Below, piece by piece: positions 905 to 32,779 of a stretch of 43,320 nt of DNA. A program made the translations under genes and the position numbers. The notes under the pieces are model-generated. The model saw nothing but the letters and a program-made list of their open reading frames with translations, was not told the origin of the DNA and did not search any database. Position 1 is the stretch's first letter, and every line of letters begins with the position of its first letter. Source of the stretch: Kiritimatiellia bacterium (GTDB lineage: Bacteria > Verrucomicrobiota > Kiritimatiellia > CAIQIC01 > Lenti-01); contig JAFXQI010000089.1 in assembly GCA_017527155.1 (NCBI GenBank), positions 1-43,320 on the forward strand. The letters run 5' to 3'.

Positions 905-3900
905 ATGGCCAATCGCATTATCCGGCGCATCGCGGGCATCCTCGGCTGGATGCTGGGGCTTGGGCTGGCGACGGCAGGGGCGGAGGAACACTACCATTTC
1001 ACCCTCGGCTATGACGGGCCGTGGCGCTGGCACGAAGTGACGATGACGACCACCGTCCAAGGGGAGTACCCCAACCAGACAACGTACTACAAGGGAACGG
1101 CCAGCATCACAGGGTACGTCGGCAATGCAACGAGCCTCACCATCCCAAAGAAGATTTCCTGGACAGGGAGCGTGTCGACGACGGATGGCTCCGTGGATTT
1201 GACTTATTCCTACGAGGTGGATGTCGTCGGCATCGGGGACAGGGCGTTTTGGGGTAAGAGCAGCTTGACGAGCGTGACGATTCCCAATAGCGTGACGAAC
1301 ATCGGGGTTGCGGCGTTTTGGTGTTGCAGCGGCCTGACGAGCGTGACGATTCCCGACAGCGTGACGGGCATCGGGGTCGGTGCGTTTGAGGCTTGCAGCG
1401 GCCTGACGAGCGTGACGATTGGCAACAGCGTGACGAGTATCGGGGTCGCTGCGTTTGAGGGTTGCTCCGGCCTGACGAGCGTGACAATCCCCGACAGCGT
1501 GACGAGCATCGGGAGCAATGCGTTTGCCAGGTGCAGCGCCTTGAGGAGTGTGACAATTCTGGGGAATGTCACGAACGATTGGCCCACTCGGGAGAGATTT
1601 AGACATGTGCCCTTCTATGGTTGCACGAACATCGAGTCAGTTGTACTGGGTGAGAAGATGACGAAAATCGGTGATTGCATGTTTTACGGATGCTGGGGGC
1701 TGAAATCGGTCACGATTTTAGGCAATGTCACGAATGATTGGCATGGAGCTACTGAGGTGCTTGGAGATGCTGTTTCTAGTTCCCCGTTTTATGGCTGCTC
1801 AAATATTGAGGCCGTTGTTCTTGGAGAAAGAATGACGAAAATCGGTGACCAACTGTTTTACGAGTGTCCCAAAATACAATCCATCACAATCCCCGACAGC
1901 GTTAAGAGCATCGGGTACAAGGCATTTTACGGTTGCAGCGGCATGACGAACGTGACGATTGGCAACGGCGTGACGAGCATCGGATACGCGGCGTTTTTCA
2001 AGTGCACCGGCCTGACGAACGTGGTGATATCCAACAGCGTGACAAGCATCGGGGAGTCTGCTTTTTTCGGTTGCAGCGGCCTGACGAGCGTGACGATTCC
2101 CGACAGTGTAACGAGTATCGAGTGGGGTACGTTTTCCGATTGCAGAGGCCTGACGAGCGTGACGATTCCCGACAGCGTGACGAGCATCGGGGACTATGCG
2201 TTTGAGGATTGCCCGGGTCTGATGAGCGTGTCGATTGGCAACAGCGTGACAAGTATCGGAGATGGTGCGTTTTACGGATGCAGTGGGCTGACGGGAGTGA
2301 CGATTCCCGAGAGCGTGATGAGCACCGGGGACAGGGCGTTTCGCAATTGCAGCGCCTTGGCGAGCGTGACGGTTCTGGGAAATGTCACGAATGACTGGGA
2401 TTCCTACTCTAGGCCGTTTGCCGAGTGCACGAACATTGAGACGATTGTGTTGGGCGAGAGGATGACGAAGATTGGGGACTATATGTTTGCTAACTGTCCC
2501 AAGGTCCAATCCCTCACGATTCCCGACAACGTGACGAGCATCGGAAACTCTGCGTTTTCCTCCTGTTCCGCCTTGGCAAGCGTGGCCGTCGGGGAGAACG
2601 TGGAGAGCATCGGCACAAGCGCCTTCTACAACTGCTACAGCCTGACGCGGTTGGCGTTGCCGGGGAGTCTGCGGACAATCGGAAACATCGCGTTTTCGAA
2701 GTGCACGGCGCTGGCGGAAGCGGAGCTGGGCGGCGTGGAGGAGATTGGGCTCAAGGCGTTCGAGGGCTGCACGGGCCTGCGGGCAGTGTCGTTGCCGGAC
2801 GGCGCGAAGCGCATCGGTGCGGGGGCGTTCAGCGGGTGCACGGCGCTGGCGACGGTGGCGCTGCCGGCGGGGGTGGAGGAGGTGGGGGCGGGGGCGTTCT
2901 CGGGGGCGTCGGTCAAGTCGCTGTACTTCGACAACGCGGAGGGGGCGTTCCTGGAGGCGTTCTCGAAGGAGTCGCTGCGGACGCTGTACCTGGGGGCGAA
3001 CGCGGGCGGGGTGACGGGGGAACGGCTGGGGGACTGCCTGGCGCTGTCCTCGCTGCTGGTGGCGAAGGGCAACGGGGAGTACGCGGTGGATGCGGCGGGG
3101 GCGCTCTTCGACCGGGACTTCACGCGGCTGATCCGGTATCCGGCGGCCTCGCCGGCGGAGCGCTACGCGGTGCCGGGGACGGTCCGCAGCGTGGACGCCT
3201 CGGCGTTCTCGGACGCGACGGCGCTGCGCGAGTTGGCGTTCGGCGGGACGGTGGAGGGGATCGGCGCGGGGGCGTTCGACTGGTGCATCTCGCTGGAGCG
3301 GGTGGTGTTCCCGTCGGGACTGGGGAGCGTGGGCGCGGGCGCGTTCCGGGTCTGCCCCTCGCTGGAAACGCTGCGCTTCGAGGGGACCGGCCACGCCGTG
3401 CCGTCCTTCGAGGGCAATCCGTTCGCCTACGGCAGGCCCGTCGTGCAGATCGAGGAGTCCGAGGCCCCGCGCTGGGAGGAGACGCTCGCACGGCTCGGCC
3501 TCTCGTGGGAACCCATCGCCGACGCCCCCGGCGCGGTGACGACCTCGACGCCCGTCCCCGTCGCGCATTCGTGGCTGGACAGCCGGGCGGCGCGGGCCCT
3601 CTCCGCCGCCGGCGGCGACTACGAGGCGGCGGCGATGTCCACCGCCGCGAACGGCCGCGTGGTGTGGGAGTGCTACGTGGCGGGACTGGACCCGGAGGAC
3701 GGGGAATCCGTCTTCACGGCGGGGATTTCCTTCGACGAAGGCGTCCTCTCCCTCATGGTCTCCCCGAGTCCCGACGACGGCGTCGAGCGCACCTACACCG
3801 TGTACGGCAAGACCACCCTCTCCGACGCGGAACCCTGGACCGACGTGACCCGCCTCCCCGAGTCCCAAAAGCGCCTCTACCGCTTCTTCCGCGTGGGCGT

Positions 3901-11443: not shown

Positions 11444-11485
11444 CGGGAGGCACAAGGTAGAACCGAAAACAAAGAGGAGTTGAAC

Positions 11486-13147
11486 ATGGGCGTTTTCATA
11501 CGGCGGACGGCGAAAGGGGTTGCCCCTTATTGGTTTGGCCTTTGGCAAGTGGACGGCAAGCGGCATGAAACCAGCCTTTGCCGCTGGAAGGGGACACCGC
11601 CCGAACCGGGAGAGAAACGCGGGGACGCGGCTTTCGAGAAATCACGCGGCGAGGCCGAAGCCCTTTTCAAGCGTATCCGGGAGGGGGAAAAGAGCCGGGA
11701 AGAAGAAGCCGCCCTTGTGCAGAAAATCCACGCGGCACGTTACGGCGGCAAGGTTGACCGCTTGAAGCTGGCCGACCTCTCCGCCCGATGGGATGCCCTT
11801 CCCCACAAGGCCGACTTGACGGAAGAGCGGCGGGCGCGGGTTCATTCCGTCTTGTCCCGGTTTGTCGGCTTCATGGCCGACCGCTTCCCGAACGTGAAAG
11901 AGGCCGGGGGCTTGACCGCCGAACACTTCAAAGCCTTTCTTGAGGACGTGGACGGAAGCGGCGTTTCGGCGCGGACGTGGAACGACTACATGGAAACCGT
12001 GCGGAGCGTCTTGCGGAAGGTGGACGGAAACAGCCGGGGGTTCCGGGAGTATCTTGCGAACCTCCCGAAGCGCACGGTTTCCACTGTACACCGCCGCCCG
12101 TTTGACGGGGCCGAACTGGATGCCATTTTCGCCGCCGCCGCCGATACCGATCCCGAACTCCGCCCCGTGCTTGTCGCCGCCGCTTGCACCGCACTCCGCC
12201 GGGGCGACGTGTGCCGCTTGCGGTGGGATGCGGTTGACCTTGCCGAGGGCTTTGTGACGGTGAAAACGGCCAAGACGGGGGAAACGGTGGAAATCCCCAT
12301 CTTCCCTCCCTTCCGGGCCGTGTTGGAGGATGCCGCCGCGATGCGGAAAAAGGGCGTGCCGTATGTTTGGCCGAAAATCGCCCTTGCGTATGCCCGGAAC
12401 CCCTACGGGCTGAACTGGCGGCTTGGGAAGGTGTTGGCGGCGGCGGGGTTCGCCAAGCCCGAACGGGAAGCCAAGGCAAGCCCCCATGAAAACGCCGGGA
12501 AGTATGAAGCCCCGGAGGATGCCGAAGCGGCGGCGGCGATGCTAGAGGACGGCATGGAAAGGGAGGGATGGACGGCCAAGCGGAAAGACAAGGCGCGGCG
12601 CATTCTCGCCTTGCACTTCGAGGGGAAGAACGGGGTGGAAATCGCGGCCGAAATCGGGACGGGGAAGGGCGCGGTGAGTGACTACTTGCACGCGATGGAA
12701 ACGGCGGGCCGGATGGCCCTTGTTTCCGAACCGAAACGCGATACCCCCGCGCGGGCGACGCTGGCGGAAATCGGGGACGGGGAGCAAAGGAAACTCCGCG
12801 GGAGCCTATGCGGCTGGCATTCCTTCCGAACGACCTTTTGCACGCTGGCCCTTGCAAACGGCGTTCCGATGGACATTCTACGGAAAATCACGGGACACCG
12901 AACGGCGGAGATTGTCTTGAAACACTATGACCGCCGGGGCCGGGACGCGATGCGGCGGGCAATCGGGAACGCGATGCCGAAAGCCATTGCCGGGGCCGTC
13001 GCCGCCCCCGCCGTCGCCCCCGATGGGGACGCGCTGGAAGCCGTCGCCCTCCCCGCCGACCTTGCCGGGATGCTGGCCGATGCCGACCCCGCAACGATCG
13101 CCAAGGTTGCCCGCTTGCTCGCCAAGGCGAAAGGGGGCCGGAAGTGA
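11486..13147 (+). CDS. Tyrosine recombinase (integrase) with an inserted HTH segment
   Basis: 553 aa. ATG 11486 has AAAGAGGAG 7 bases upstream; a TTG at 11480 is in frame but overlaps that site. Residues 1-85 look like an arm-binding N-terminus (VAPYWFGLWQVDGKRHETS), 90-190 a SAM-like core-binding domain, and ~205 onward the catalytic domain. Catalytic residues: Arg238 (ALRRGDV), Lys263 (TAKTGE), His445 and Arg448 (WHSFRTT), His471 (ITGHRT) and nucleophile Tyr481 (KHYDRR). Between Lys263 and His445 lie about 180 residues, far more than usual, and residues 377-410 of this insert read as a helix-turn-helix (VEIAAEIGTGKGAVSDYL). An Ala-rich tail follows Tyr481. It catalyses integration at and excision from tRNA-His. 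Its stop overlaps the next gene by 4 bp. Confidence 0.93.
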   Translation: MGVFIRRTAKGVAPYWFGLWQVDGKRHETSLCRWKGTPPEPGEKRGDAAFEKSRGEAEALFKRIREGEKSREEEAALVQKIHAARYGGKVDRLKLADLSARWDALPHKADLTEERRARVHSVLSRFVGFMADRFPNVKEAGGLTAEHFKAFLEDVDGSGVSARTWNDYMETVRSVLRKVDGNSRGFREYLANLPKRTVSTVHRRPFDGAELDAIFAAAADTDPELRPVLVAAACTALRRGDVCRLRWDAVDLAEGFVTVKTAKTGETVEIPIFPPFRAVLEDAAAMRKKGVPYVWPKIALAYARNPYGLNWRLGKVLAAAGFAKPEREAKASPHENAGKYEAPEDAEAAAAMLEDGMEREGWTAKRKDKARRILALHFEGKNGVEIAAEIGTGKGAVSDYLHAMETAGRMALVSEPKRDTPARATLAEIGDGEQRKLRGSLCGWHSFRTTFCTLALANGVPMDILRKITGHRTAEIVLKHYDRRGRDAMRRAIGNAMPKAIAGAVAAPAVAPDGDALEAVALPADLAGMLADADPATIAKVARLLAKAKGGRK

Positions 13148-19360: not shown

Positions 19361-19411
19361 AAGGGATGGGGTGGACAACGGGATTTGAACCCGCAACCAC
19401 TTGAACCACAA
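19361..19411. repeat. Right attachment site (att) direct repeat
   Basis: Identical to 11276-11326. It covers the tRNA-His 3' half from the anticodon loop to the CCA and 6 bp past it, so integration restores the tRNA. Confidence 0.93.
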
Positions 19412-19444
19412 TCAAGTGCTCTACCAAGTTGAGCTATGTCCACC
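19367..19444 (-). tRNA. tRNA-His (GTG)
   Basis: 78 nt including encoded CCA. The acceptor has the extra 5' G (G-1) paired with C73, the hallmark of tRNA-His: GGTGGACA pairs with TGTCCACC. Anticodon arm CTTGA-TTGTGGT-TCAAG gives anticodon GTG, and the T-arm is GCGGG-TTCAAAT-CCCGT. Its 3' half is the integration target of the adjacent element. A good promoter lies 16 bp upstream. Confidence 0.97.
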
Positions 19445-29993: not shown

Positions 29994-31523
29994 ATGGCCG
30001 ACATCCTCCGATTCGAAACCGTCTCCTACGCCTGGCCCGGCATGGTCGCCCCGCTGCTGGAAGGCCTGAGCGTGCAGTTCGACCGCGGCTGGACGGGCAT
30101 CGTCGGCGCGAACGGCTGCGGGAAGACGACGCTCCTGCGCCTCGCCTCCGGCGAAATCGCCCCGGCCGACGGTACCGTCGCGCGGCCCGCCTCCTGCCTC
30201 TACGTCGTCCAGCGCACCGACGATCCGCCCGAGGGCATGGGGGCCTTCTTCGCGTCCGACGACGCGTCCGCCTGGCAGGTCCGCGCCGACCTCGACATCG
30301 GCGACGACTGGGACGCCCGCTGGGATACGCTCTCCCACGGCGAACGCAAGCGCCTGCAGATCGCCATCGCCCTCTGGCGCGCGCCCGGGCTGCTGGCGCT
30401 CGACGAGCCGACGAACCACCTCGACGCCGCGGCCCGCGACACGCTCCTTGCCGCCCTCCACCGCTACCGCGGCACCGGCCTGCTCGTCAGCCACGACCGC
30501 GCGCTCCTCGACGAGCTGTGCGGGCAGTGCCTCTTCATGACGCCCCCGACCGCGGTGCTCCGTCCCGGCGGCGTCACCCAGGGCATGGAACAGGACCGCC
30601 GCGAACAGACCGCCGCCCGCGCGCGGGACGATGCCGCGAAGCACGCCGCCGCCCGCCTCCGGGCCGCCGCCCAGGAGCGCCGCGAGGAAGGCGAACGCAT
30701 GGCCGCCCGCACCCAGGCCCTGACCCGCAATGCCAAACGCAACCCCCACGACCACGACGGCAAGGAGGTCCGCCGTCTCGCCAAGCTGACCGGCAAGGAC
30801 GCCTGGGCCGGCAAGCAGTCGGCGGCCCTCGCCAAGCGCGCGGCCAAGGCCCAGTCCTCCCGGGCCTCCATCTCCGTGCGCAAGGAATACGCGACGGGCT
30901 TCTGGCTCGACGATGCCGACGTATCCCGCCGCAACGCCCTCCTGCGCATCCCCGCGGGCGAGCTGCCCCTCTCGCCCGGACGCCGTCTCGCCTACCCGGC
31001 GCTCGACATCGCGCCCACCGACCGCATCGCGCTCACCGGCCCCAACGGCGCCGGAAAAAGCACCCTCCTGCGCGCCATCCTGCCGCACCTGAACGTGCCG
31101 GCCGAGCACCTCATCCACATCCCGCAGGAAATCACCGCCGCCGAATCCGTACGGATCCTGGCCGACGCCAAGCGCCTGCCCGAAGCGGTCCTCGGCGACG
31201 TCATGCGCCGCTACTCGCGGCTCGGCTCGCGTCCCGGCCGCCTCCTCGAATCCGCGCAGCCTTCCCCCGGCGAAATCCGCAAGCTGCTGCTCGCGCTCGG
31301 CATCGCGCGCGGCCCGCACCTGATCGTGATGGACGAACCGACGAACCACCTCGACCTGCCCGGCATCCTCTGCCTGGAGGACGCCCTCGCGGCGGCTCCC
31401 TGCGCGATGCTCCTCGTCAGCCACGACGACCGCTTCCTCGCCCGTCTCGCCCGCAAGCGCTGGCACATCGCCGAGACCACCCCCTCCCTCTGCACCCTCG
31501 CCGTCCGCCACGACTATCCCTGA
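29994..31523 (+). CDS. ABC-F family ATPase (ribosome-associated translation/resistance factor)
   Basis: 509 aa with two ABC domains and no membrane segment. Domain 1: Walker A GANGCGKTT, signature LSHGERKRL, Walker B LLALDEPTNHLD, and SHDRALLD. A basic coiled linker (~200-310, ARARDDAAKHAAARLRAAAQERREEGERM) then leads to domain 2: GPNGAGKST, a degenerate signature PSPGEIRKLLL, LIVMDEPTNHLD and SHDDRFL. ABC-F proteins bind the ribosomal E site. Some confer antibiotic protection, others are housekeeping. The linker is shorter than in typical resistance proteins, and the class cannot be decided from sequence. ATG 29994 fits the usual N-terminus; upstream codons of the frame are low-complexity. 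Confidence 0.92.
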   Translation: MADILRFETVSYAWPGMVAPLLEGLSVQFDRGWTGIVGANGCGKTTLLRLASGEIAPADGTVARPASCLYVVQRTDDPPEGMGAFFASDDASAWQVRADLDIGDDWDARWDTLSHGERKRLQIAIALWRAPGLLALDEPTNHLDAAARDTLLAALHRYRGTGLLVSHDRALLDELCGQCLFMTPPTAVLRPGGVTQGMEQDRREQTAARARDDAAKHAAARLRAAAQERREEGERMAARTQALTRNAKRNPHDHDGKEVRRLAKLTGKDAWAGKQSAALAKRAAKAQSSRASISVRKEYATGFWLDDADVSRRNALLRIPAGELPLSPGRRLAYPALDIAPTDRIALTGPNGAGKSTLLRAILPHLNVPAEHLIHIPQEITAAESVRILADAKRLPEAVLGDVMRRYSRLGSRPGRLLESAQPSPGEIRKLLLALGIARGPHLIVMDEPTNHLDLPGILCLEDALAAAPCAMLLVSHDDRFLARLARKRWHIAETTPSLCTLAVRHDYP

Positions 31524-31534
31524 CGGCGCGGACG

Positions 31535-31689
31535 TTTTCCAATGGTTGGAAACTTTTTTTCCAATGGTTGGAAAAATTCGGCCCGTTTTTCCAATGATTG
31601 GAAAAAAATTTCGCCGTTTTTCCAATGATTGGAAAATATTTTCGTGTTTTTTCCAATGATTGGAAAAAAGTTTTCCAATGGTTGGAAAA
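31535..31689. repeat. Array of six phased palindromes, core CCAATG(A/G)TTGG in T/A arms
   Basis: Units at 31535-31552, 31556-31576, 31586-31606, 31617-31636, 31647-31669 and 31671-31689 each read T4-6 CCAATGATTGG (or CCAATGGTTGG) A3-6. Starts of CCAAT are 22, 30, 31, 31 and 22 bp apart, close to whole helical turns and symmetric about the centre. Spacers between the inner units carry CG-containing motifs. The array lies between the ABC-F stop and the metallophosphoesterase promoter. Confidence 0.92.
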
Positions 31690-31732: not shown

Positions 31733-31760
31733 TTGCAACGCGGGGTCGGGCGGCTATGGT
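31733..31760 (+). promoter_or_regulatory. Promoter of the metallophosphoesterase gene
   Basis: TTGCAA (31733-31738), 16-bp spacer, TATGGT (31755-31760). It lies 44 bp after the palindrome array, so a protein bound at the array could control it. The leader to GTG 31895 would be about 128 nt. Confidence 0.5.
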
Positions 31761-31894: not shown

Positions 31895-32779
31895 GTGCGC
31901 ATCCTGCATTTCAGCGATGTCCATCTGCCGTTCCCCGAAGGGGCGCTGCGCGATCCGGCGGTGCTGCATCCGAAGCGGCTGCTGGCGCTGGTGAACTTCC
32001 GCCTGCGCCGGAGCGACAAGTACGCGGAGGCCCGGCAGAAGCTGGACGGGCTGTGCGATTTCCTTCGGCAGGAGCCGGTGGACTGGATCCTGTACACGGG
32101 CGACACGATGAACCTGGGTCTGGAGAAGGAGTACATGGAGGACGCGGAGCCCATCGCCCGGGTGCTGGAGATGGCCCGGAAGGGGGCGCTGGCGGTGCCG
32201 GGAAACCACGATCTGTACGCGGGGGCGTCCCTCCGCCATTACCGGCGGCGTTTCGCCAAGCGCTTCCCGAAGAGCGACGTGCCGGAGGCGGCCGTGGGGG
32301 CGAAGGGCTCGCCCGGCGGCTTCCCCTCCGTCCGCTACATGGGGCAGGAGGCGGTGGCGATCGGGATCAACTCGGCGGTGCCGCGGTTCCCGTTCTGGGA
32401 TTCCAGCGGGCGGCTGGATGCGGCCGAGCTGGGGGCGCTGGAACGGTTGCTGGATTCGCCGGCGGTGGCCCGGCGGAAGTGGGTTTTCGTGATGACCCAC
32501 TACCCGTTCCTGGACACCGACTGCCTCCACGGGCTGCGCAACACGGAGCCGTTCTGGCGGTTGGTGGAGGGACGCAAGAACGTGGTGCTGCTGCACGGGC
32601 ACAACCACCGGATCTACCTCAAGCAGGGGCCGGGCGGGATTCCCGTGTTCTGCGCGGGGAGCCTCTCGAAGCGGGGCGCGGAGTCGTTCTGGCTGTTCGA
32701 ACCGTTCGCGGGGTCGCTGAACGCGCGGCGGGGCGTCTGGCGGAACGCGCGGTTCAGCCTCGACCCCGTGGGAGAGTGA
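31895..32779 (+). CDS. Calcineurin-like metallophosphoesterase
   Basis: 294 aa from GTG 31895, with AGGAAGGAAG 8 bases before. Earlier codons of the frame are the palindrome array and are not coding. Metal-site motifs in order: ILHFSDVHL, ILYTGDTMN, AVPGNHDLY, VMTHYPF and LLHGHNHR, which give the full dinuclear metal set. Resembles Icc/cAMP phosphodiesterase-like and 3',5'-cyclic-nucleotide or lipid phosphatase families; substrate unknown. No signal peptide. The gene converges with mutY, the stops being 18 bp apart. Confidence 0.9.
   Translation: MRILHFSDVHLPFPEGALRDPAVLHPKRLLALVNFRLRRSDKYAEARQKLDGLCDFLRQEPVDWILYTGDTMNLGLEKEYMEDAEPIARVLEMARKGALAVPGNHDLYAGASLRHYRRRFAKRFPKSDVPEAAVGAKGSPGGFPSVRYMGQEAVAIGINSAVPRFPFWDSSGRLDAAELGALERLLDSPAVARRKWVFVMTHYPFLDTDCLHGLRNTEPFWRLVEGRKNVVLLHGHNHRIYLKQGPGGIPVFCAGSLSKRGAESFWLFEPFAGSLNARRGVWRNARFSLDPVGE

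Follow-up and report, generated by a model that had tools for sequence, protein, structure and literature searches.

Helically phased arrays of short palindromes as candidate protein-binding platforms in a Kiritimatiellia bacterium and its relatives

A window of 43,320 nucleotides, the whole stretch of contig JAFXQI010000089.1 analysed here, contains six similar palindromes between two genes, which raises the question of what such an array does and whether it is peculiar to this locus. The first-pass annotation of the window had suggested that a dimeric protein binds cooperatively along one face of the helix, serving chromosome organisation, partition or promoter control. Binding of a putative dimeric protein along one helix face is still the best reading of the array sequences, and the three suggested purposes fared differently, as described below.

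Structure of the arrays in the window and in the genome

The array in the window consists of six TTTCCAATGRTTGGAAA sites, each an 11-mer, and the site coordinates (Table 1) confirm both the positions and the centre spacings (22, 30, 31, 31, and 22 bp) given in the first-pass annotation. The two halves are perfect in sites 3–5 and one base off in sites 1, 2, and 6. With up to one mismatch, CCAATNATTGG had seven matches in the window, six of which lie within the array; 100 dinucleotide shuffles of the window contained 0.65 such matches on average and five at most. Both neighbouring genes lie outside the element, and the stop of the upstream gene is approximately 12 bp 5′ of the array. The pair of motifs previously called promoter-like (TTGCAA at 31733–31738 and TATGGT at 31755–31760) received no promoter score in a consensus scan. 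Rfam returned 18 matches at E ≤ 1, mostly to eukaryotic microRNA models and none reaching the gathering score of its family, and these were read as low-complexity noise. As the units are short palindromes with gaps of 10–20 bp between cores, a CRISPR array was rejected here as well.

Table 1. Positions of the array, its sites, and the neighbouring genes in the window
Feature	Position	Strand	Centre	Remarks
Entire array of six palindromes with T/A arms	31535..31689	.		155 bp
Site 1, CCAATGGTTGG	31539..31549	+	31544	
Site 2, CCAATGGTTGG	31561..31571	+	31566	22 bp from site 1; spacer nearly A/T-only
Site 3, CCAATGATTGG	31591..31601	+	31596	30 bp on; spacer with G/C core TTCGGCCCG
Site 4, CCAATGATTGG	31622..31632	+	31627	31 bp on
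Site 5, CCAATGATTGG	31653..31663	+	31658	31 bp on
Site 6, CCAATGGTTGG	31675..31685	+	31680	22 bp on; spacer nearly A/T-only
Upstream neighbour, ABC-F type ATPase gene	29994..31523	+		Family from reading the translation, not from a domain search
Downstream neighbour, metallophosphoesterase-like gene	31895..32779	+		Family from reading the translation

In the genome from which the window derives (G000; 3.2 Mb in 114 contigs), the core CCAATNNTTGG has 364 forward matches and its reversed control none, and triplets with a 22-bp spacing followed by one of 30 or 31 bp number 80 + 71. A sample of approximately 680 kb, consisting mostly of DNA chosen for its arrays, contains 280 sites, which fall into 63 groups; arrays of at least two sites make up 57 of these groups. 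Extrapolation from this partial sample gives an estimated 90–110 arrays in the genome. The 217 spacings in the sample measure 21 (n = 6), 22 (87), 24 (1), 29 (3), 30 (57), and 31 bp (63). Hence 216 of them fall at 21–22 or 29–31 bp, one at 24 bp and none at 25–28 bp, in agreement with the earlier view that the spacings are near whole helical turns. Nearly all intervals in three lineages are 21–22 or 29–33 bp. The Rayleigh resultant of the spacings is 0.80–0.99 at 10.5 bp, with p values that treat intervals of shared ancestry as independent, and the summed within-array offsets fit best at 10.3–10.4 bp.

Flanked by T/A arms, nearly all sites take the form CCAATGATTGG, CCAATGGTTGG, or CCAACGATTGG; no site showed the double variant CCAACGGTTGG, against 8.6 expected from independent halves. 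Three classes of spacers were distinguished: A/T-rich spacers at the 22-bp spacing, spacers with a G/C core at 30 bp (51 of 57 distinct), and spacers with an asymmetric AAAAATTTT-CGGC core at 31 bp (50 of 63 distinct). With the centre base used to set the orientation, the spacings of most arrays follow the order 22-30-31(-31)(-22), indicating that the arrays have a direction. The mirror symmetry described earlier is thus real in the window array, which is a single case, and does not extend to arrays in general. Only six decayed sites were found beside the 280 intact ones. Some arrays occur in pairs 1–2.5 kb apart (L215, 3736–6240; L185, 4983–6187; and L231, 5380–6907); the pair in L215 flanks an apparent tandem gene duplication that is absent from the sister species G076.

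Distribution among relatives and variation of the core

Among the matches listed in the collection scan, the records belong to Kiritimatiellae, Lentisphaerae GWF2_57_35, Verrucomicrobia, Spartobacteria, and the uncultured bin-1020, with a few single matches outside this group. Pairs of the strict core occur in 46 of the 146 genomes of the class. Each of the 17 family genomes sampled has pairs of the looser pattern TTCC-N7-GGAA, as do about half of those sampled from the class (probably Kiritimatiellae) and 78 of 388 genomes of the phylum, mostly of the same class; the other classes have 0–2 pairs, with seven in one genome. Reversed-pattern controls gave zero in all but a few genomes. The first-pass annotation had looked to further arrays in the genome as a pointer to a nucleoid or segregation role, and had named their absence from the genome and its relatives as grounds for refutation. 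Arrays are found in both, and the annotation thus survived this check. Copy numbers range from 0 to more than 1000 pairs per genome (1048 in G006 and 1385 in G089).

The outer TTTTCCA...TGGAAAA is broadly common to these genomes and the middle bases vary by genus: the core is CCAAT in the genus of G000, CCACA, CCATA, or CCACG in sister genera, and CCAAG in another family. At three loci in families f31 and f19 (L336, L344, and L327), many single TTCC-N7-GGAA palindromes surround tilS with no regular spacing, a layout that differs from the phased arrays. A search of phages and plasmids for arrays gave no matches. An 18.9-kb IMG/VR contig (L359), viral according to the collection only, has a three-site array at 3420–3530, close to the 3′ end of a stretch of coding DNA; on visual inspection, the reading frame seems to continue from it into coding sequence.

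Arrays within genes

A small minority of all arrays lie within genes; the identities of tilS and of the permease and lipoprotein genes described here come from reading the sequences. The tilS array (L205) is the only one of the G000 set that was called inside a gene, and reading frames are open through it. In a search with the L205 protein stretch, 14 of 16 family genomes had palindromes at the tilS locus, at least two sites being present in 12 of the 16, each locus with the core of its own genus. In an alignment of 11 tilS sequences, most inserts lie between the same two conserved segments, in a region that aligns poorly and with a doubtful upstream frame in L319. The sites of one tilS array often have an identical core, indicating that local duplication contributes to their sameness. 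The tilS genes of other families mostly contain no palindromes, and L332 has two weaker sites. In-frame arrays are also found at the same place of a permease gene in G000 (five sites), G076 (five), and G047 (three), which belongs to another genus, and at the start of a lipoprotein gene in G000 and G047, each carrying its own genus core.

Comparison between sister species

Across five arrays that are orthologous between G000 and G076, no changes were found in 200 bases of CCAA/TTGG, compared with 20 of 145 in the spacers and 20 of 472 in clean flanks (Fisher p = 1e-8 against spacers and 0.001 against flanks), indicating that the sites are kept. The spacers vary more than the flanks (p = 0.00016), a difference that would suggest exchange between arrays. 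Some homology blocks stop at array borders, and in two cases an array is present in one sister species and absent from the other. Such gain or loss and the breaks of homology at borders fit a mobile or recombining repeat; selection for binding is in keeping with the small number of decayed sites and with positions that persist from genus to genus while their cores change.

Binding platforms or dispersed repeats

On the sequence evidence, the arrays may be binding platforms for a putative dimeric, sequence-specific architectural protein, a reading that we favour tentatively. One such dimer would occupy each TTTTCCA-N5-TGGAAAA palindrome, and spacings of two (22 bp) or three (30–32 bp) turns would bring successive dimers, perhaps bound cooperatively, to almost the same side of the helix. 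The job of the protein would be architectural, i.e. chromosome folding, bridging or insulation, and not the control of particular genes; a nucleoid role is plausible. The genus-specific cores could be explained if the specificity of the protein drifted between genera and the arrays changed along with it, with the outer half-site and the spacing staying as they were. A bolder form of this reading, to which we give less credence, is a lineage-wide chromosome-organising system in which a putative protein acts on arrays whose recognition code shifted between genera while their positions persisted, some of them in a normally essential gene such as tilS. Against a platform stand the gain and loss of arrays between sister species, the enormous variation in copy number, and the failure of the chromosomal ParB to track the arrays.

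Close behind comes the possibility that the arrays are dispersed non-autonomous palindromic repeats of the REP/BIME or RPE type that a transposase or recombination has spread, that gene conversion and local duplication have made uniform, and that serve no host function. Rickettsia palindromic elements (RPEs) are approximately 100–150 bp long, and some lie in frame inside protein-coding genes. Compared by description, the present elements are similar in size, palindromic nature, and occasional in-frame position in ORFs, but each is a phased array built from many short palindromes, most lie between genes, and the phylum is another one. Presence or absence at otherwise homologous flanks, homology that ends at array borders, the excess of spacer over flank divergence, the repetition of units within arrays and the array on one viral contig would likewise be expected of such repeats. 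Y1_Tnp genes are also somewhat commoner in array-bearing genomes (p = 0.0004, uncorrected for phylogeny or genome size). However, the four Y1_Tnp loci of G000 (approximately 3.2 kb each) contain no TTCC-N7-GGAA and no array site within approximately 1.5 kb, and G046 has approximately 100 pairs and no Y1_Tnp matches. With transposase loci devoid of sites and a count difference that is weak and confounded, a RAYT-driven REP system was rejected.

REPs are defined as palindromes with a GTAG or CGTC tag at one end and are sometimes intragenic (PMC3733652). The arrays resemble REPs and BIMEs in being dispersed, mainly extragenic short palindromes in many copies, in forming mosaics with a few spacer types, and in favouring no one class of genes. 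They differ in their shorter units (19–25 bp), their helically phased spacings, the lack of an adjacent RAYT gene, and the change of core per genus at conserved positions; moreover, inspection of the 57 arrays revealed neither tag, the arrays ending in TTT/AAA arms. The scarcity of decayed copies, the retention of positions across genera although all cores differ, and phasing that is strict despite slippage-prone A/T runs also speak against repeats of this type. The two readings are not exclusive, since the features of both would be expected in a domesticated repeat.

If a protein does bind the arrays, they would constitute a natural experiment in the joint change of a DNA-binding protein and hundreds of sites, traceable across genera at orthologous sites (tilS, the permease gene, and alaS), and could bring to light a factor that organises the chromosome in a bacterial class little studied at the molecular level. 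If they are selfish repeats, strict helical spacing and tolerance in frame within genes make them an unusual family, in which the uniformity of the cores calls for an explanation. Under either reading, the array sequence can be used directly as bait in a pulldown. A search of the open-access literature found CCAATNATTGG in no paper, one of four core 11-mers in 17 papers with unrelated titles, and nothing on palindromes of Kiritimatiellae; an earlier description of the arrays may exist elsewhere.

Genomic context and chromosomal distribution

Gene contexts in G000 were taken from the 680-kb sample with a simple codon-usage gene caller, which called 75% of the DNA as coding and missed some genes. 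By these approximate calls, 32 arrays lie between tandem, 13 between convergent, and 7 between divergent genes, with 1 in a gene and 3 at an edge. In bin-1020, the counts for arrays are 60 tandem, 21 divergent, and 11 convergent, compared with 116, 34, and 19 available intergenic spaces of at least 80 bp, and the use of the three kinds of space matches their availability. The direction of the array is the same as that of the nearest upstream gene in 20 cases and opposite in 16. On the single contig of the complete genome G081, with parB as a proxy for the origin, 63 clusters are evenly spread (Rayleigh p = 0.91; gap variation 1.15, near Poisson). This even spread, together with the indifference to gene direction and the lack of a regulon, makes an architectural role the most likely one for a protein bound to these platforms. 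In G081, two regions (C1, 2576504–2586680 and 2945777–2954875) contain the same two kinds of arrays approximately 9–10 kb apart, which suggests a large duplication.

Operators of a global transcription regulator are an improbable alternative. Some arrays do lie 50–200 bp 5′ of gene starts, and an array is kept 111–129 bp upstream of alaS (AlaS was named by Pfam) in both G000 and G047, but arrays also occupy convergent spaces and coding regions. Among 29 proteins scanned, the 28 encoded by array neighbours have mixed functions with no common theme (AlaS, gyrase A, elongation factor G, malic enzyme, transporters, and kinases among them), and a transcription-factor regulon was rejected for want of a coherent target set. 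The promoter control proposed in the first-pass annotation is likewise at odds with arrays that lie between convergent genes or inside ORFs, beside unrelated genes.

Bidirectional transcription terminators or mRNA-stabilising hairpins appear less probable still. RNA from either strand of the window array forms a much more stable fold than shuffled sequences do (z = −10.6 and −8.0), and in tandem spaces the array is nearer the upstream stop in 23 of 32 cases in G000; the corresponding figure in G076 is, however, only 5 of 13, divergent spaces are used as often as others, and arrays occur inside ORFs. The scan found two terminator-like hairpins in the array region, near the chance level (0.9 ± 1.0 in shuffles). 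In G047, the inner pair of the palindrome can be T-G when read on one strand and C-A when read on its complement, and the pairing-competent (wobble) strand agrees with the upstream gene in 9 cases and disagrees in 10, which argues for a role as double-stranded DNA despite the strong RNA fold. An RNA hairpin function was rejected on these orientation tests, and an intrinsic terminator, which the first-pass annotation had also discounted, on the use of divergent spaces and the lack of strand specificity. The least probable alternative is that the arrays are signals for DNA uptake or recognition that come in lineage dialects: lineage-specific cores with a common outer part, the high density in G006 and G089 and the homology blocks that sometimes end at arrays would suit them, but known uptake words do not resemble phased arrays of palindromes, and G000 has only approximately 100 arrays.

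Several known chromosomal and plasmid systems share single features with the arrays. The sites of Noc (NBS), SlmA (SBS), and MatP (matS) are many short palindromes over the chromosome for one protein, but they are single and unevenly spread, whereas the present sites form phased arrays with an even spread in G081; a positional signal of the matS or parS type was rejected on the latter ground. In sopC, parC, and plasmid iterons, repeated sites at whole helical turns are bound cooperatively, as might be the case here, with one array per replicon in contrast to approximately 100 per genome. A partition-like site, also suggested in the first-pass annotation, is not borne out, given this number, the even spread, and a ParB independent of arrays. 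One high-scoring ParB per genome was found in 50 genomes with or without arrays, with weaker extra hits in both groups, and a Noc/ParB-like system was rejected as well.

Other rearrangements and elements

In comparisons of the two sister species (L270–L289 with L180–L237), short blocks of approximately 1–6 kb share 94–99% identity, with gene order broken between them, and some of the breakpoints, only a part of the total, lie at arrays. In the window itself, an ORF of 555 amino acids at 11480–13147 resembles, by reading, a tyrosine recombinase/integrase. The adjoining stretch, up to 19.4 kb, has no confident gene call and ends at a tRNA-His gene (19367–19443); together they are possibly an integrated element.
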